A DNA stretch of 64,000 nt from Chloroflexota bacterium (GTDB lineage: Bacteria > Chloroflexota > Anaerolineae > Anaerolineales > Villigracilaceae). The notes under the pieces are model-generated. The model saw only the letters and a list, made by a program, of their open reading frames with translations, was not told the origin of the DNA and searched no databases. Position 1 is the stretch's first letter, and every line of letters begins with the position of its first letter. The DNA is taken from positions 62,001 through 126,000 of the forward strand of contig JACRPQ010000013.1 of the NCBI GenBank assembly GCA_016223135.1, read 5' to 3'. The position numbers were made by a program, and so were the translations under genes. Below, in pieces: positions 5,969 through 64,000 of the stretch.

Positions 5969-6142
5969 ACTGCCTCCTCAAGGTAAAAGAGATTTGTGAC
6001 CAACAGGGGAACGAACGATGGACAGATTAAAAATCGAAAACCGGTGTTGTAGGTGTCGCAAACCCGCACAAAAAGGAGGACAAAACGATTACAATTATCC
6101 AGATTGTTGGATTATTGGTATGCCATTGGGAACAAATCGAGC

Positions 6143-8761
6143 ATGGACAGCCTAATTTCATTTGGCGCCTGGCTCAGGCGCCGCCGCAAAGCGCTTGACC
6201 TGACTCAGCAACAATTGGCGGACCGCATTGGATGCTCCCTCTCGGCTTTGCAAAAGATTGAGCGCGATACGCGCCGCCCTTCGCGTCAATTGGCTGAACT
6301 GCTCGCAACGCATTTGAATATTCCAGAGAATCAGCGGGGGTTGTTTTTGAAAATCGCCCGGGCCGAAAAGGCGGTGGACAGCCTTGACTCGCTCGCATTG
6401 ACATCTATTTCGGAATCTGCCCCCATTTCCGATTCCGAATTTCGTCCATACAGTGTGCCGCTCCCGCTAACTCCCATCATTGGCCGCGAACATGAACTAA
6501 ACCTGGTGAAGCAGCGTCTTCGAGAACCCCAGAGCCGCCTATTGACTTTGACAGGACCCGGAGGCGTTGGCAAAACATGCCTGGCGCTGGAAGCGGCGCA
6601 TCAGCTGCGGGACACCTTTCGTCACGGCGCCTGTGCGGCCTCACTGGCTGGCACAAGTTCCCCCGCGTTTATCGTGCCCGCGATCGCCGATTCTCTGGGA
6701 CTCAATTTTTCCGGCGCAACGGATCTCAGGGAGCAGTTGCTGAATTTCCTGGGGGATAAACAGATTTTGCTGGTCCTTGATAACCTGGAACATCTGTTGG
6801 AGGGTATCGAGTGGCTGGATGACCTTCTCGAACGTGCGCCAAACGTCAAACTGCTTGTTACCTCTCGTGAGCGACTCAATCTGCGCGCGGAATGGATCTT
6901 CGAGGTGGCTGGGCTGCCTGTCCCTGCAACAATCGAAACGGACAACCCTGAGTCGAACAGCGCCGTGGCATTATTTGCCCGGCGGGCCAGGCAGACGAAT
7001 CTGGACTTTTCTCTCGCGGCAGATGATTTGCCTCCGCTAAAACGCATCTGCCAGCTTGTTGATGGATTGCCGCTTGGACTGGAACTCGCCGCGACCTGGG
7101 TGCGGGTGATGTCGGTGAGGGAAATCGCCCGCGAGATCGAACGGAGCGTGGATTTTCTCACTACAACCGCGCGCGATGTGCCGGAACGCCACCGCTCCAT
7201 CCGCGCGGTATTCGACCATTCGTGGAATCTGCTCTCTGAAGAAGAACGCTCGACGATCATGCATCTTTCCGTATTTCGCGGCGGGTTTACGCGTTCAGCG
7301 GCAGAGCAGGTGTCAGGGGCATCCCTCTCCCTGCTTTCCTCTCTGGCTGCAAAATCCCTGATCCGGCGTGACTCTACCGGCAGGTTCGACCAGCACGAGC
7401 TGATTCGGCAATATGCCCGTGACCATCTCATTCGATCCGGTCAATTGGACGATGTCTGCGACCGGCATCTCGCCTTCTTTTTGTCACTTGCCGAGGAATC
7501 CAAATCAGAATTGCGCGGCTCCGAACAACTGGGTTGGTTGAACCGTTTGGAGCATGAACAGGATAACTTTCGAGCGGCGCTTGAATGGTCATTGAGACAT
7601 GAAGGCTCCACGGATAACATATCCCCTGCCGTGGAACAAACCATGCAGGCGGCTCTCAAACTGGCAGGCGCACTTTACCTGTTTTGGCGAAGGGGGGGCA
7701 AATGGAGTGAAGGCCGCAAATGGCTTCAGCGTGCTTTGACCCAGTCGGCGAGGTTGCCGGTCACCCGTGAGCGCGTCGAGGCGCTGGATGCTGCCGTACT
7801 TCTTGCTGTCGAACAGGCTGACACACAGGCCGCGCGCCAACTGGCGGAAGAAAACCTCACGCTGACACGGCGGATCGGCGATCCGTACGACTTTGCCCGC
7901 GCCATCAATTCTCTGGGACTGGTGTTTTGGAAACAGAAGGATTTTGACACGGCGCGCTCTTACTGCCAACAGGCACTGGTTGAATTCCGCAAACTGGACA
8001 GACCACTCGATGTTGCCGACACACTGCGCGCCCTAGGACATATTGCCACAAATCAGGATGACCTTGAACCGGCTCAAATGTATCTGGAGGAGTGCCAGGT
8101 CATTTTTCACGAGCACCATAACCAGATCGAGGCTCATGCCGCATTGAGCGATCTGGGGCTTCTGGCATATTTGCGCCAGGATTTCCCAACCGCGCTGTCG
8201 CGTCTCCAGAAAAGTCTGGAGTTCTTTCGTGAACTCGGACAGGTGGAAGGCGCCTCGCTGGCACTGAATAGACTGGGGGATGTCGCACGCTGTCAGAACG
8301 ATTACAACAAAGCAAAACAATACTATGAGGAGAGTCTACTCATGCATCGCGAGACAGGCGACAGGGACGGGATCCCAAGCGTGCTCCACAATCTGGGGTA
8401 CGTGGCACTACATCAGGGCGAGAATGCCAAAGCGATGGAATTGTTCAGGGAGGGACTTGCCATTCACATCGGGATGGGAAACCAGGCGGGCGTTGCAGAG
8501 TGTCTAGCCGGAATTGCCTCTGTGCTGACAATGCAAGGCAGCGTGGAAGACGGGGCTTGTCTGTTTGGGGTGGCTGAAGCCTTGCGCGAGAGAACAGGCG
8601 CCTCCCTCTGGCCCGCGAATCGCATCGAATATGATCGCAGTCTCGAGAGTCTCAGGCGATCCCTGGATGATTCGACTCTCGCGGCATCCTGGGCAGATGG
8701 ACGCGCCATGTCTGTTGAGCAGGCGACTGCCCGGATTTCAGACGTATATCAATATCGCTGA
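6143..8761 (+). CDS. XRE-HTH / NB-ARC ATPase / TPR transcriptional regulator
   Basis: This is an 872-residue regulator. An N-terminal XRE helix-turn-helix ([20 protein letters not shown]) is followed by an NB-ARC-type STAND ATPase with Walker A (TGPGGVGKT), Walker B ([12 protein letters not shown]), a sensor-like LVTSRERL and [11 protein letters not shown] long C-terminal array of tetratricopeptide repeats runs from about residue 540 to 830. STAND proteins oligomerise when a ligand binds the repeats. The ATG at 6143 is chosen because it begins at the HTH; the GTG frame at 6053 adds 30 basic residues with no domain. The target genes are probably local (cupin, exporter or small membrane protein), but this is inference. 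Confidence 0.85.
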
Positions 8762-44082: not shown

Positions 44083-45282
44083 CTATGGGTTTGAACCCGC
44101 AGCATCTTCTATTCGCTTCATCACTAGACTGATAACTACCAGTTGGTCGAGAGCCTCATAAGGACCAATCTTTACCCATTCTTTATCTTTGGGTTCATGC
44201 CCTTTTGGATGTCGGAAAGCCATAAAAACTCCAATTCCCAAATGACCATAACCTCTCTGTTCGTTTTGTTGAGAACGATAATCTGGCGATGTTGATTCGA
44301 GAGGATTAAGTCTTATCACAGGTTTTAGATTTTCATCTTTGGCATTCGGATCGCCCAAAATCTTTTTCACAGCCTGGACCTCAGTAATATTAATGTCGCC
44401 CGAACATTTTCGAAGAAAATCGAAAAAGACTTTGCAAGCCTCAAAGACGGCACTAAAGTAACTGCCGTTCTTGAAATCTTCCTCGGCTATTTTTCTAATA
44501 CTGGGATGCAATGGATAAAAATCAAACAGCATTATAGGGTCAGGTCTGCTTGTTTGCTGCATCAGTGCTTCATAGAGCAAAACCAATTCCCACTCAGATA
44601 AAATCCGTCTGGTGTCGAACTCCTCCGCCTTATTGAGTAAGATGGTGTCAGAAATGCTTTCAAATTGTGACCAGTACTGGCTTTTATCAACCTTTTCTCC
44701 ATATCTTTCTGACCACCATAAAATAACAAGGGTGTCCGTTATATCAACTGGTTTCAACAAGGGTAAATCAATTTTCTCTCCCAGTTCTCTAAGCGCGGCG
44801 TTGAATAGCATTTGCCTCGCAACAGAGCCTTTGACGTGTGAAGAAATGTCGCTGATCAGAGTCTCTCTCGCTTCGCTGCTCTCCAGCGCGGAAGCACCCA
44901 GCGCCATTAGGAAAACCTGTTCTGGAAAGCGGAACGGTGAAAATCTATCGTCCTGACCGACACTCAATTCTTGGAGCATCTTTACGGTCTTTTCCACATA
45001 CGACTCGCTTATCGAGAGTTGAAGGTGTTTCCGAAGCCAGATGAAAAAAAGCAAAGGACCGATATTGCGTTTGTATACCCAGGCAGACTCCTCCTGAACC
45101 CAAGAATCCAACCGCTGAAGCACATCCTGAAGCAACAGCGATTGCGCCCCTCTTTCATGAGCGAAAGCATAAGCCAGCCAGGAGGCTACGAAAGGGTCCC
45201 ATTCCTGGTCAAGTTCGTTTTTGCGCACAAGCAAGGCACGCTTAACGTCTCCGCGGTATTGAAGTAGGTTTAAAGAAACCAT
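44083..45282 (-). CDS. Ymh/HEPN-like domain effector protein
   Basis: The 399-residue protein is the last gene of the leftward defence operon. Residues 1-250 are helical and unrecognised. The C-terminal domain (about 250-395) matches the Ymh family (TIGR02391): PLHPSIRKIA, then NGSYFSAVFEACKVFFDFLR and an R-x4-H motif (RHPKGH, residues 357-362) like that of HEPN ribonucleases. HEPN domains cut RNA in toxin and abortive-infection systems. The start overlaps the Argonaute-like gene by 13 bases, so the two are coupled. The likely role is a toxic RNase or sensor released by the Argonaute; this is inference, not shown. Confidence 0.7.
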   Translation of the reverse strand: MVSLNLLQYRGDVKRALLVRKNELDQEWDPFVASWLAYAFAHERGAQSLLLQDVLQRLDSWVQEESAWVYKRNIGPLLFFIWLRKHLQLSISESYVEKTVKMLQELSVGQDDRFSPFRFPEQVFLMALGASALESSEARETLISDISSHVKGSVARQMLFNAALRELGEKIDLPLLKPVDITDTLVILWWSERYGEKVDKSQYWSQFESISDTILLNKAEEFDTRRILSEWELVLLYEALMQQTSRPDPIMLFDFYPLHPSIRKIAEEDFKNGSYFSAVFEACKVFFDFLRKCSGDINITEVQAVKKILGDPNAKDENLKPVIRLNPLESTSPDYRSQQNEQRGYGHLGIGVFMAFRHPKGHEPKDKEWVKIGPYEALDQLVVISLVMKRIEDAAGSNP

Positions 45283-46568
45283 GCTTTGTCCGCCAGCAAG
45301 CCCAGTTGGGCTACATGTTGACTCCAGGTGTCAACGCCTATCTCGGCAATCAAATCCGCAATCAAGCGGGAATAGTTCAACGTGGCCGGCACCGATTGAG
45401 CATTAAAGCCGCGCCAGTTTACAGCAACAAATTCATAAACCTGTCGCGTCAATCGTTGAAATTCGCTTATCGGCAGCGTTGACCGGGTGTCAAAGCCAAT
45501 TTCAAACAAGCGGGGGACACCCCTGCGGTTGCGAGTTTCTTCACCTGTTCGGAAATCTCGCTTGCGACCATCTAGAAAGAGCAAGGCACTCGTTTCAGAA
45601 AGGTTTACTTTAATACCAGGTTGAGGAACGTAACTCGCATGTGCAGTGTCGAACAGATGATAACTGCTGTATTCGTTCAAGTGGAGAATGGCATAGGGAA
45701 TATTTGCGCCCAGCAATTTCATCGCTTGCTCTGCTGCATAGAACTCGCGGAATTTCCCTGGCTTTTTACACAGGTGTATCACGATTTCATCAGGTTGTCG
45801 GTTTAGTTGAGTATATTCACGACACGCCTTCACGATAACGCTTGCCAGCGACTCTTGATACGCTTCCCGATTTTCCCAATAAACTGGCTGGGGAGCAATG
45901 CTCGAAAAGAACAGGTAATCTCCATCGCTGCTGAAAAGCGTAACGAAACCGACTACCATTCGCTTTTGTTCGTCCTGAGCGCGGCTTATGCCTAGCACCA
46001 GGCTCTTTTGTTTCTGCGAAGACAAAACTGTCCAGGGTGTTCCGCCAATTTTGGCGTACATTTGTAGCGCAATGTTTTCAAGTGTCCAGGGCAATTGAGA
46101 TGGATTGCGGAGTTTTTCCTGCGTAACAAATTGGCTGGGGATGCCAAGACCAATCAAAATGGACTTGGCGCTGGTATAGAAGGCAGGGTTGCGCGTTGAA
46201 GCCAACAGAAGCACGATGTCCGGCTGGGCGTCCCGAACCAGGCCACGAATATTTTTATCCAGTTGCTCCGGCGTTTCTCCTGGAATGCCGCGTTCACCAC
46301 AAATGGTTAACGGAATCCGAAACAATTTGTGAAAGCCCGCAAAAGACCCGTTCCCGTTTTGCAGACCGCCAACGACGGTTTGCTTCGCGCCTTGTAGATT
46401 TGCGGGGTAAATCACCAGACAGTTCACTTTGTCTTTTCCCAACGTCATCGCATCGTATGGACCATAGTTCTGGATGCCGCGGCGTGGATAGTAATCCCGT
46501 TGACTGAGGGAGGAAGCGCTGAATCGCAAAGCCGGGGCTGAAAGTTTTTCGCCAACAAAATACAGCAT
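45270..46568 (-). CDS. Truncated, catalytically inactive prokaryotic Argonaute (MID-PIWI), AfAgo-like
   Basis: The 432-residue protein carries the Argonaute signature KIGGTPW (residues 173-179), PYAILHLNE (291-299), VNWRGFNAQSVPATLNYSRL (383-402) and a C-terminal WFL, as in Archaeoglobus AfAgo, where the end of the chain helps bind the guide 5' end. The RNase H-type tetrad is lost: GIS replaces the first GxD, IVIHLC the second region and NYS the last. It is a MID-PIWI protein of about 430 residues without PAZ or N domain. The ATG is preceded by GAGGTAAGGT. Its neighbours supply the missing domains and a probable effector. Confidence 0.85.
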   Translation of the reverse strand: MLYFVGEKLSAPALRFSASSLSQRDYYPRRGIQNYGPYDAMTLGKDKVNCLVIYPANLQGAKQTVVGGLQNGNGSFAGFHKLFRIPLTICGERGIPGETPEQLDKNIRGLVRDAQPDIVLLLASTRNPAFYTSAKSILIGLGIPSQFVTQEKLRNPSQLPWTLENIALQMYAKIGGTPWTVLSSQKQKSLVLGISRAQDEQKRMVVGFVTLFSSDGDYLFFSSIAPQPVYWENREAYQESLASVIVKACREYTQLNRQPDEIVIHLCKKPGKFREFYAAEQAMKLLGANIPYAILHLNEYSSYHLFDTAHASYVPQPGIKVNLSETSALLFLDGRKRDFRTGEETRNRRGVPRLFEIGFDTRSTLPISEFQRLTRQVYEFVAVNWRGFNAQSVPATLNYSRLIADLIAEIGVDTWSQHVAQLGLLADKAWFL

Positions 46569-46579
46569 ACCTTACCTCG

Positions 46580-47317
46580 CTACAAAATCACAGGAAAGGG
46601 AACGGATTCCAATTGCGCCTGTCCACCACACGGCAAAAGGAAAGTGTGAAACTCCTGAGCAAATGGAAGCAGATAACTGTGCATGCGTATTTGGGAGATT
46701 TGCAGGTTGAAGCGGGTTGTGCCGCGCAGGAATTCTTCCTGAACGACCAATGCTTCGTTTAGCGCGTTTCTTGCGCGCATTTGCGGCATGTTGAGTGGAG
46801 TGCCGTTTTCATCCTGATAAGCCCAGGTTGCGTCCACAACCAATCCCAGGGACTCTACAGCAGGGTAATAAGCGCAGCGTAAATCATACCCGGCGAAAAC
46901 TTTGACCTTTCCCTGTGTTGTTATCCCCTTTGGAGACAGTTGAAATATCTCCGCTCTAGCATCAAAACCCTTCGGGGAAATTTTTCTTCTTTGCCAAAAG
47001 CCTTTGGATAAGGCTGATGCAATGAGTCCCTCCAATACCACACGTGCGGCGAGCACAGGTGTGTCCTTTAGAAGCATCTGGCTCTTCTCAAAGCCCCTGG
47101 CTAACAGAAATGTGACTGATTCCTGACCGTATCCGTACACGCGGTCGTTATGGGCGTACACGGAAACCTGTGCCTGTGCGCTGTCTATTTCGTTCCTCAA
47201 TGACCGCAAGTCAACGGCTTTTGCCCGCGAGGTGACCATCACCTGCACAGGCTCATCAGGCAATATCACCGGGAAAATGTTGGTATAAATGCCGGGTTGT
47301 AATTGCACTTGGCTCAC
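46580..47317 (-). CDS. Argonaute N/L1/L2-domain-like partner protein
   Basis: The 245-residue protein is encoded directly before the MID-PIWI gene with a 11-base gap. It contains FAGYDLRCAYYPAVESLGL and VVDATWAYQDENG, the kind of segment seen in N/L1/PAZ-proximal parts of long Argonautes. In Archaeoglobus a separate N-L1-L2 protein (AfAgo-N) forms a heterodimer with the MID-PIWI chain, and the size here fits that. The GTG start has GGAGG seven bases upstream. An APAZ-like origin is an alternative. It lacks nuclease motifs. The 136-base gap to drmB may contain its own promoter. Confidence 0.6.
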   Translation of the reverse strand: MSQVQLQPGIYTNIFPVILPDEPVQVMVTSRAKAVDLRSLRNEIDSAQAQVSVYAHNDRVYGYGQESVTFLLARGFEKSQMLLKDTPVLAARVVLEGLIASALSKGFWQRRKISPKGFDARAEIFQLSPKGITTQGKVKVFAGYDLRCAYYPAVESLGLVVDATWAYQDENGTPLNMPQMRARNALNEALVVQEEFLRGTTRFNLQISQIRMHSYLLPFAQEFHTFLLPCGGQAQLESVPFPVIL

Positions 47318-60936: not shown

Positions 60937-61257
60937 TCAATTTGTCAAAATGATTACTATACCCCATTCCAAAAAAGGCAATTCCCCAAACCTTCGTGAA
61001 CTTCCCATCACCACAGCCACCTCATCCGGCAAATCCACGCACGCCCAGCGCGCGGCCTCGTGCACCCAGTTCGTACTCAACTGCGCAAACACCAACCGTA
61101 CTCCTGTCCGTTCACATAAATTCCGCGCCTGATCCAACCTCTTTGTCGTAACCTCTGTGATTTCATCTCTATCCTTGTGGTCGTCTCCTACTTCCAACCA
61201 GAACAAAGTTTCATATCCTTGAATCCTTCCCCATTCTACGCAATACTCTCCTCTGTC
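60937..61257 (-). pseudogene. Orphan C-terminal gene fragment following the E1 stop
   Basis: The frame directly follows the TAG stop of the JAB-E1 gene in the same phase and reads EYCVEWGRIQGYETLFWLEV, then LDQARNLCERTGVRLVFAQL, STNWVHEAARWACVDLPDE and FGELPFLEWG. It is clearly protein-like but has only a TTG (61206) as possible start and no Shine-Dalgarno site. It resembles the ends of replication-relaxation-type proteins of mobile elements, but I am not sure. It is best read as a truncated gene. Confidence 0.4.
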
Positions 61258-62649
61258 CTATTTTGCCAGCTTGGTCAGTGTTGGCAATAGGGCTAGATCG
61301 CCAAATCCCTTCACCTTCTGACAAATACACTTCTTATCGAAATTTGTTGTTCCTCGGTTGGATAAACCAGTGAGGAAATCATAATTTATTCGGCTGATTT
61401 CTCCAGCGTCGCCCATAAAATTTGTGAGTAGATGAATAAACAGGGATACGGCAGAACTTGCTACGCTTGATGTAAAACTTATTACTGCCGGCGTCTTGGA
61501 ATCAATATCCTCGACATATCCTTGTTCAAGCAGGTGTCGTCGCTCTTCAATCGGCATGCTCTCTGTTGCAATTCTCTCGGATCGGAGGAATTGCTTGCAC
61601 CACAGGCAGGGCTTATCCGGTCGAAGAATATCCATTGTGCCTATTGCGTGAGAAATCACACCAGCATCAGATGTGATTCGGACACCAAGGTTGATGGTTG
61701 GAATCATATACTGATAGGCAATCTGGTTGACAATAGAACGACCCCAATGTTCATCTGTGCAGAGAAAGAGAACATCTCGACCCAGTAGTAGCGAAGCAGT
61801 CTTACCCAACACTACATTTTGACTGACTGCACGAATCTGCGCATTCGGATTTATCCTTCTTAGATTCGAAGCAACCAGGTTAACCTTATACTCAGAAAAG
61901 AATCTAGATTTCCTTACTGACCCATAATACGTACCGTAGACACGAGAAAGATTTGTCGGAGAAAATTTATCAGGATCAATCAGTACGAGATCCAAAACCC
62001 CAAGTCGCACTAATTGTTCGGAAATGGGCGAACCTGTTCCTCCTAGCCCAATGATGCCCACCTTGGCGCGGGAGATAGCCAATTGCCCATCTTTCCCAAA
62101 TGCCCTTACTTGACGGTCATACAAATCCAGTTTGGCTGAACCGCTTGAAACCTTTTGCAATTCAATTTTTTGAATGTGGTGTCCTATCACAACAATCTCG
62201 TCCAGGTGGATAGGCTGGGAATTATTTGCAAGCCATATCCTGCCTGTAGTATTGTCGGGAGTAAAAAGCAGACTTGCTATAGGCGCTCTTGCTAGGATGA
62301 ATTGTCGAAGGGTATTTGCAATCCTCTCCTCCCCATAATCATCCGATTGTGAATATCTTAGTCCACTTGGATGACTATGACATATCACTGCCCCTAATTG
62401 GTTTGCCTCACACAAGGCGATCAAGCCATTAATAGCCTGAGGTGCAACTTCAAGGCGATATTCGTTTTGAACCAACATCATGTGTTTGGGAACTGAAATG
62501 GGTCGTCTTACGAGAATATCTGTTTGATCGCCATATTCAGCGATTCCTGCTAATGCAAAAGCTCCCGCTTCATCCGGTAAATCAGCCAAGACCATACTGC
62601 GCAGTTTATCAAAATCTTTACGAGAGATTTTTAACCTGTATTTTTTCAT
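61258..62649 (-). CDS. JAB protease-E1 fusion of a ubiquitin-like conjugation operon
   Basis: The 463-residue fusion begins with a JAB/JAMM domain (about 1-150, CHSHPSGLRYSQSDDYGEER with HxHP and the final Asp; the usual Ser position is Gln beside serines). A ThiF/E1-like adenylation domain (about 190-440) follows, with GLGGTGSPISEQLVRLG, VLIDPDKFSPTNLSRV, CTDEHWGRS and zinc Cys pairs (CLWC, CIC). The JAB part would trim or remove the ubiquitin-like protein; the E1 part would adenylate its C-terminal Gly. The start overlaps the E2-like stop by ATGA. Confidence 0.85.
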   Translation of the reverse strand: MKKYRLKISRKDFDKLRSMVLADLPDEAGAFALAGIAEYGDQTDILVRRPISVPKHMMLVQNEYRLEVAPQAINGLIALCEANQLGAVICHSHPSGLRYSQSDDYGEERIANTLRQFILARAPIASLLFTPDNTTGRIWLANNSQPIHLDEIVVIGHHIQKIELQKVSSGSAKLDLYDRQVRAFGKDGQLAISRAKVGIIGLGGTGSPISEQLVRLGVLDLVLIDPDKFSPTNLSRVYGTYYGSVRKSRFFSEYKVNLVASNLRRINPNAQIRAVSQNVVLGKTASLLLGRDVLFLCTDEHWGRSIVNQIAYQYMIPTINLGVRITSDAGVISHAIGTMDILRPDKPCLWCKQFLRSERIATESMPIEERRHLLEQGYVEDIDSKTPAVISFTSSVASSAVSLFIHLLTNFMGDAGEISRINYDFLTGLSNRGTTNFDKKCICQKVKGFGDLALLPTLTKLAK

Positions 62650-63035
62650 TGGTTGCTCTTCACAGCTCTAGCAAGACCGTTGTTTACAAACTCCAGATAC
62701 ATGGATAAATTTCCAATACTAGGATTCCAACCTTGAGGATGCCAAGAAAATCTCCGCCACTGTTGACCGAGGTGATCTTCAAGCGAATCTGCATTAGTAG
62801 GTGTCCGTCCATCTTCGCACAACAAGTCTGGCGCCGTCCAGAACATGTCTGGGTTGCCGTTTGGATATGATATGGGTATGCGTAACAGCAATCTGGTGCT
62901 TTGCTTGTTATACATTGGAGGCAGTGGATAATCATCCAATATTATATTTGCAAACCCATCCCCCTCGATCAATTCCACCTTGTAACCACCATCTCTCAAG
63001 CCCGCAATTTCTTGAAGCAGGATGTCGGTCAACAT
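62646..63035 (-). CDS. E2-like conjugating protein (Prok-E2 family E)
   Basis: The 129-residue protein starts MLTDILLQEIAGLRDGGYKV one base after the stop of the ubiquitin-like gene (TGATATG). It has LRIPISYPNGNPDMFWTAPD, a Cys in LLCEDGRTP and QQWRRFSWHPQGWNP, matching the bacterial E2-like family E. It lacks a canonical HPN triad; the reactive residue could be the Cys or the Ser of FSWH. It should accept the ubiquitin-like protein from the E1 partner. Confidence 0.78.
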   Translation of the reverse strand: MLTDILLQEIAGLRDGGYKVELIEGDGFANIILDDYPLPPMYNKQSTRLLLRIPISYPNGNPDMFWTAPDLLCEDGRTPTNADSLEDHLGQQWRRFSWHPQGWNPSIGNLSMYLEFVNNGLARAVKSNQ

Positions 63036-63036
63036 A

Positions 63037-63276
63037 TCAGCCGAAGGTCCCAGGCGGCACAACGCGGTAACGTTGACCGTTTTCAATTTGGACAGGCGCA
63101 GTAATCTGAATATCGTCAACTGGCAGCTGACCCTCCGGGTCCGGCGATTTGTTGACCAGCCATACCTCATAGTCGCTTGGAGCCCCCACCGCGTCTCTGA
63201 AATCCTGTGGAGTAAGTTCGGACTTCTCGAAGTGGTACGGTTTTTGGTTGATATGAATAGTGATTTTCTTTGTCAT
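63037..63276 (-). CDS. Ubiquitin-like protein (Multi_ubiq type) with C-terminal Gly
   Basis: The 79-residue protein (MTKKITIHINQKPYHFEKSE, middle APSDYEVWLVNKSPDPEGQ, end YRVVPPGTFG) is a single ubiquitin-like domain resembling multi-ubiquitin proteins. It ends directly in Gly, so no processing is needed before activation. The start at 63276 is fixed by AGGAG seven bases upstream; the longer frame at 63351 is not needed. It is the first gene of the conjugation operon. Confidence 0.82.
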   Translation of the reverse strand: MTKKITIHINQKPYHFEKSELTPQDFRDAVGAPSDYEVWLVNKSPDPEGQLPVDDIQITAPVQIENGQRYRVVPPGTFG

Positions 63277-63374: not shown

Positions 63375-63439
63375 GTTAATACCGGCGTGCTACAAATTTT
63401 TGCCATTTTGACCAAAAACTGGCGGATGGCGGTATTAAC
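63375..63439. promoter_or_regulatory. Inverted-repeat pair in the divergent promoter region
   Basis: GTTAATACCG (63375-63384) and CGGTATTAAC (63430-63439) are exact complements 45 bases apart, in the interval between the ubiquitin-like gene and the sigma-like gene. A second pair, TGATTGGAT (63440-63448) and ATCCAATCA (63493-63501), lies beside it. They could be operators shared by both divergent promoters. Confidence 0.4.
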
Positions 63440-63561: not shown

Positions 63562-64000
63562 TTGGACGAGAAAAAAAGACAACTTCTAAATGATTTTCCG
63601 TGGGAAGAAACCTACCCTAAACTTGTGGCGTTTGCGGAGTGGGTTATTCAAGGGAAGAACTGGAGTTCCGGCGTTCTTCCCAAAGGACAAACTGCGGAAA
63701 CCATCGTACAAGATGTGATTACGAAGACCCTCACTGGGAAGCGGAATTGGGACCCTGAAAGGGGAGACTTGCTCGATTGGTTGAAATGGGTGATTAAGAG
63801 CGATATCAGCCATTTAGCGGAATCGGCTGCCAACAAACGCGACGTGCGTCTAGATAGTCTCAGTAACGATCCGGCAGTTGACCAAATCGAGTACAAGGCG
63901 GGCCGTGAGTCACGTGTCAGGCCTCAGGACGCCTCTCCTGAAGAAGCAATGATTGCGGTTGAGACGGAAGATGAACTGATGGCTTCCGCCAGATTGAAAA
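63562..64000 (+). CDS. Sigma-70 family (ECF-like) regulator, 3' partial
   Basis: The gene starts at TTG 63562 after a strong GGGAGG site seven bases upstream and runs off the window. It reads LDEKKRQLLNDFPWEETYPK, then IVQDVITKTLTGKRNWDPER and DLLDWLKWVIKSDISHLAES, the layout of sigma-factor region 2 in which an early helix pair is followed by 'LLDWL..VI.SDI'. It could be a small sigma factor or a related DNA-binding regulator. It is divergent from the ubiquitin-like operon. Confidence 0.5.
   Translation, partial: MDEKKRQLLNDFPWEETYPKLVAFAEWVIQGKNWSSGVLPKGQTAETIVQDVITKTLTGKRNWDPERGDLLDWLKWVIKSDISHLAESAANKRDVRLDSLSNDPAVDQIEYKAGRESRVRPQDASPEEAMIAVETEDELMASARLK

Follow-up and report, generated by a model that had tools for sequence, protein, structure and literature searches.

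A Bub-type ubiquitin-like conjugation operon of a Chloroflexota bacterium, probably carried as a cassette with its own sigma-factor switch

The window, which is the whole stretch of 64,000 nucleotides that was analysed, consists of bases 62001-126000 of contig C6 (JACRPQ010000013.1) of the 3.8-Mb genome of a Chloroflexota bacterium (G000). Near its end lies an operon predicted to encode a ubiquitin-like protein (Ubl), an E2-like protein and a fusion of a JAB protease with an E1, and divergent from this operon is a trio of genes that overlap or nearly abut and are mostly past the window end. The features of the locus, in window coordinates, are the following.

60953..61233, minus strand: leftover 3'-terminal part of a gene for 373 aa, one copy of a direct repeat of 281 bp, whose other copy (86% identity) lies past the window end at about 65510-65790
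61258..62649, minus strand: JAB-E1 fusion (BubCD-like) gene, 463 aa, JAB N-terminal and ThiF/E1 C-terminal
62646..63035, minus strand: E2 (BubB-like) gene, Prok-E2_E, 129 aa
63037..63276, minus strand: Ubl (BubA-like) gene, 79 aa, a single β-grasp domain with the C-terminus VVPPGTFG
63377..63405, minus strand: promoter-like site towards the bub operon, TGGCAAAAA-N13-GGTATTA
63409..63437, plus strand: promoter-like site towards the sigma operon, TGACCAAAA-N13-GGTATTA
63562..64000, plus strand, continuing to about 64203 past the window end: ECF-like sigma factor gene, 213 aa
about 64190-64636, outside the window: gene for a helical protein (X), 148 aa, no family match
about 64638-65450, outside the window: ImmA/IrrE M78 peptidase gene, PF06114 with E 4.7e-13

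The original prediction of three overlapping genes at this place is correct as to the three genes and as to the overlap of the JAB-E1 gene with the E2 stop codon, with which it shares 4 nt (ATGA), but not as to Ubl and E2, which are separated by 1 nt if E2 starts at 63035. The longest open reading frame of E2 begins at 63170; relatives and Pfam place the start at the ATG at 63035, giving 129 aa, and by these comparisons 63170 is not a likely start. The Ubl gene is preceded by an AGGAG ribosome site. The order of the three genes is kept in related genomes, at 53-92% identity, and also on plasmids from many phyla, and therefore the operon is not a product of chance.

The E1 half of the fusion protein matches PF00899 (ThiF) with an E-value of 1.7e-31, far over the cut-off, and the JAB half matches PF14464 with an E-value of 4.6e-4, under the gathering score, with its JAMM residues intact; the protein as a whole matches Citrobacter BubCD in PDB (9ea4_A) with a phmmer E-value of 3e-27. 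An alignment of 18 sequences conserves all of the JAMM residues (E27, H91, H93, S100, D103) and all of the adenylation residues (G201/G204/G206, D225/D227, N233, R236, K255, D299, R304), so the predicted E1 has kept every ATP-binding residue, a point on which the original prediction had been made to depend. No Cys of E1 is invariant in this alignment; the crossover-loop residue Y378 is invariant in 18/18 sequences. PDB entry 9eav, which combines BubCD with BubB and one BubA domain, has Phe in place of Tyr at the BubCD position equivalent to Y378, and Citrobacter BubCD chains in PDB carry the substitution D104A, of which the mutated JAMM Asp aligns to D103; thus, the depositors of these structures apparently regarded both residues as functional. 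A role of Y378 in E1 is likely.

The 79-aa protein has no family match in Pfam, NCBIfam or PADLOC, nor by phmmer in PDB, and its identification as a Ubl is based on profile comparison and fold. A profile of four Chloroflexota Ubls compared by HHalign with a profile of Multi_ubiq-type relatives gave 93%, and the AlphaFold model, for which eight relatives were used, has a mean pLDDT of 83.6 and shows a β-grasp with the element order β-β-α-β; the PDB folds that Foldseek ranks highest for it are those of bacterial multi-ubiquitin proteins, of ThiS and of Citrobacter BubA. The modelled fold and the C-terminus VVPPGTFG agree with the prediction of a Gly-ending ubiquitin-like protein, which hinged on the presence of a Ubl fold. 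The C-termini among its relatives are TFG, TFGGTDGV, TFGEK and TFGR, and those with the three longer endings would need to be trimmed to TFG, whereas the Ubl of the window, which already ends in Gly, would not. In Citrobacter, BubA and BubB are one open reading frame, of which the solved chains meet after Asn-Gly. The function of the JAB domain is very probably both the removal of Ubl and its maturation.

The E2 protein matches PF14462 (Prok-E2_E) with an E-value of 2.9e-20 and 72.7 bits, well above the cut-off of 25, in accordance with its predicted assignment to family E, and matches Citrobacter BubB in PDB with a phmmer E-value of 6e-7. No Cys is conserved in an alignment of 15 E2 sequences; C72, the sole Cys of the window's E2, was considered as the catalytic residue and rejected, as it is present in the nearest relatives only. 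S97 belongs to the motif W-R-R-F-S-W-H (W-x-F-S-x-H in relatives), and this position is Ser in 14/15 sequences and Cys in 1/15. Exchange of Ser and Cys at one position of E2 makes S97 a candidate nucleophile, and the alignment suggests transfer of Ubl as an ester rather than a thioester through S97. The work of Ye et al. 2026 on Bub is reported to describe oxyester rather than thioester intermediates. The pattern of an E1 Tyr and an E2 Ser/Cys provides concrete mutants with which to probe ester-based Ubl transfer. A family-E E2 with Cys at the position of the conserved Ser (W-Y-C-I-H) is found at 6561-6977 of locus L034 (G132), with a JAB-E1 gene beside it at 7012-8466.

Judged by its protein families and conserved residues, the system is a Bub operon, of a kind already known though new in this lineage, and not a new system. 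Family and PDB matches bear out the predicted Ubl, family-E E2 and JAB-E1 fusion, which together form an operon of Bub type, and of the two known systems with which comparison had been proposed, Bub was matched (BubCD, BubB) and Bil was not. With the Bub operon of Citrobacter (BubA/BubB/BubCD; PDB 9EA4, 9EA5, 9EA8, 9EAE, 9EAV; Ye et al. 2026) it shares the Ubl, the family-E E2 that lacks a conserved Cys, and the JAB-E1 fusion with its JAMM and adenylation residues and invariant Tyr; the Ubl here is a single domain encoded by its own gene, whereas that of Citrobacter is multi-domain and fused to E2. The operon likewise corresponds to type 6e of Iyer, Burroughs and Aravind 2006 (PMC1779556), which consists of a Ubl of one to three domains, a Cys-less E2/RWD-like protein of a family that they termed inactive, an E1 with N-terminally fused JAB and, often, a metal-binding protein; this usual fourth protein is missing here. 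The JAB-E1 fusion, which the original prediction had singled out, is not a novelty; it was described in 2006 as part of type 6e (PMC1779556), and the fusion protein of Citrobacter, BubCD, is already solved.

The Chloroflexota form of Bub is compact, with one Ubl domain and without DUF6527 (PF20137), a frequent but not universal component of Bub operons that was found in none of G000, G012, G044, G056 and G908. DUF6527 is likewise not listed beside the Bub operon of Acidiphilium. Plasmids of proteobacteria, Deinococcus and others have the same gene order plus DUF6527 and sometimes a phosphotransferase, with the core genes annotated as multiubiquitin - E2/UBC - ThiF. In many Bub operons (L022, L023, L028, L006), a phosphotransferase-like gene (APH/TCAD9) lies between E1 and DUF6527. 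The Bil operon, which we take to correspond to type 6d, resembles this operon in combining Ubl, E1, E2 and JAB, but type 6d has separate JAB and E1 proteins and conserves a Cys and a His in its E2, whereas here JAB and E1 are fused and the E2 Cys is absent. Type II CBASS, which has a Cap2-type E2-E1 fusion and a CD-NTase, was rejected because E2 is a separate gene here and no CD-NTase was seen among the neighbours.

Of the three divergent genes, the first encodes a protein that aligns to the ECF sigma model TIGR02937 over residues 18-201 (regions 2 and 4) with 27 bits against the NCBIfam cut-off of 42.9, and that scores 21 bits in Pfam, below the cut-off of 24. The 148-aa X protein, for which only a poor model was obtained (pLDDT 57), matched no family, and to call it an anti-sigma factor is a guess. 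Seven loci in four lineages were found to have the trio. It also adjoins the operon in G012, G044 and G056, and lies beside the Bub operon L004 of genome G907, in which the Bub E1 is 57% identical to that of the window. In G115 (L041 135-2411, G115:C59), it faces a DUF2188 gene, and both twin sites are present. DUF2188 is a small protein. PMC13373217 lists YegP-like genes among the cargo of CapK+CapS. The operon that a second trio in G907 (L099 4417-8413, G907:C2) faces comprises genes for a Multi_ubiq Ubl (1e-20), a DUF6791-ThiF protein (DUF6791 with 1e-50) and DUF6527, and looks like a 6e subtype with another domain instead of JAB. The sigma and X proteins of L099 are 56-57% identical to those of the window, yet the cargo is different; those of L004 are only 23-25% identical, although its bub operon is closer to that of the window. 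Thus, controller and cargo have been exchanged, and both the existence of the controller and its portability are evident from sequence comparison.

Known controllers of Bub operons are CapW, CapH+CapP and CapK+CapS, in place of which sigma-X-ImmA is found here. CapP holds an ImmA/IrrE-type peptidase. The trio resembles CapH+CapP in that it, too, includes such a peptidase, and in that its regulatory genes likewise occur beside Bub and other operons; however, the HTH repressor partner of CapH+CapP is absent, its place being taken by a sigma70-like protein together with a helical protein of no assigned family. Compared with CapH+CapP and CapK+CapS alike, a sigma-like factor with its own putative twin promoters replaces the HTH repressor, and the helical protein is additional. 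In one survey, two known controller sets together account for 278/544 operons, if they do not overlap. A sigma-based controller is not mentioned in the accessible part of a survey of controllers and none was found by literature search; the sigma-X-peptidase control module is probably undescribed so far.

The 285-bp intergenic region between the two divergent operons holds an inverted repeat at 63375-63439, the twin site itself being a 61-bp inverted repeat, with a counterpart in the corresponding position of L004. Each half has the form TGRCMAAAA-N13-RGTATWA, which read as -35 and -10 elements is TGGCAA-N17-GTATTA, and the halves are face to face. The motif was derived from the window and L004 alone and then tried at the G115 locus L041, where both halves are present with one mismatch each; dinucleotide shuffles of the G115 region contained even one such half in only 2/5000 cases. 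Exact matches in the whole G000 genome are these two halves only, with a third, weak site (G000:C10:95750) that has one mismatch and is unpaired, and no paired motif was found beyond these loci in 396 genomes of the class. A motif scan of other genomes found a further exact match in G907, which led to the second trio (L099); there, only the half that faces the Ubl operon matches exactly. The spacing within a half is 13 in every exact site, whereas the two halves are 3 (window, L004) or 2 (L041) apart, and this combination of a constant inner spacing with a variable gap is more easily reconciled with two promoters than with a single operator. Being short and specific, the site can be used for finding more cargo operons, as it already was for the second Ubl operon of G907. 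An exact single motif without the trio at G115:C35:1467-1495, located upstream of a gene for a metallophosphatase-like protein, is perhaps there by chance.

Copies of the 281-bp repeat flank the bub operon and its controller as one cassette, and in G056 and G012 the same unit is flanked by 271-bp repeats (79-80%), which suggests insertion or recombination at the end of a gene. Nearby genes encode T4SS-like proteins and conjugation-type ATPases, and thus the unit appears to be a cassette in a probably mobile region. Viral contigs contain neither a JAB-E1 relative nor a twin site, and among phage records the only matches are weak ones, from Listeria phages to the E1 half, with no sign of phage carriage. 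PADLOC confirms DISARM (DrmD, DrmMI, DrmA, DrmB) as a neighbour, along with a short pAgo, in agreement with the original prediction.

The best explanation for the locus as a whole is a Bub conjugation operon that is carried as a cassette with its own sigma switch (probability roughly 0.6). From the genes, residues, twin sites, conservation and portability described above, we infer the following biochemical and regulatory steps. The E1 half of the fusion would adenylate Gly79 of Ubl, which would then move to E2, a Cys-less protein with S97 as candidate nucleophile, perhaps aided by Y378 of E1, and from there to targets; the fused JAB metalloprotease would take Ubl off again, and in relatives that have C-terminal extensions or a Ubl-E2 fusion it would also mature it. 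As proposed here from the example of CapH+CapP, the ImmA/IrrE peptidase may be activated by a stress signal, for instance single-stranded DNA, and in its active form may destroy an inhibitor, the helical protein being the candidate anti-sigma factor or peptidase substrate. Once released, the sigma factor would drive transcription from both face-to-face promoters, with positive feedback on its own operon and expression of bub. Whereas CapW, CapH+CapP and CapK+CapS relieve repression, a sigma factor for one promoter pair would be a switch by activation, and the controller is in this respect more important than the tagging operon itself. The chances are about even that it is a portable, peptidase-triggered sigma switch for Ubl operons and other cargo, which would add a fourth class to the controllers of immune pathways, and the first in which activation is by a dedicated sigma factor.

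The twin site could instead be an operator, at which the sigma-like or the helical protein binds the palindrome as a dimeric repressor that is cleaved by the peptidase, with transcription from housekeeping promoters. The inverted repeat itself is compatible with such an arrangement, as are the pairs of HTH and ImmA/IrrE genes that adjoin other Bub operons (fused in L005) and the finding that CapP cleaves a repressor, CapH (PMC13373217). This explanation is nonetheless unlikely, given that the spacing of 13 is fixed inside each half but not between halves, that L099 is exact only in the half facing its Ubl operon, and that the geometry of TGGCAA-N17-GTATTA is promoter-like in the presence of a sigma-like gene. 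As for the tagging operon, it is quite improbable that E2 is a catalytically dead, RWD-like protein and that nothing is tagged, Ubl being used for sulfur transfer or filaments and merely processed by JAB. In favour of this are the lack of a conserved Cys in E2, the judgement of Iyer et al. 2006 that the family is inactive (PMC1779556), the relationship of E1 to MoeB/ThiF as well, and the existence in PDB of filaments of multi-ubiquitin proteins; against it, S97 is nearly invariant and the neighbourhoods showed no gene for sulfur transfer. A sulfur-carrier pathway was rejected as E1 falls far short of the MoeB/ThiF cut-offs.

The operon had also been proposed to be a third layer of a defence island, acting jointly with the adjacent DISARM and Argonaute. 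Adjacency and the location of the cassette in a mobile-element region with T4SS-like genes agree with this proposal, but DrmD is absent from the five other operon genomes G012, G044, G056, G907 and G908, and the flanking DNA differs in each, with transposase or reverse transcriptase genes in relatives or, in L003/G044, a PLD-helicase downstream of the operon. A variable flank and the absence of DrmD in relatives leave a functional tie to DISARM unsupported, and bub and its controller move together as a unit bounded by direct repeats; joint action is highly improbable, and the proposed third layer is weak. Other genes of the window include, at 44083-47317, that of a 432-aa Argonaute of the short type (pAgo in PADLOC) together with its TIGR02391 partner and a neighbour of 245 aa that is unclassified, and a gene at 6053-8761 for a 902-aa protein with HTH, NB-ARC and TPR domains, a candidate STAND-type regulator or defence protein.
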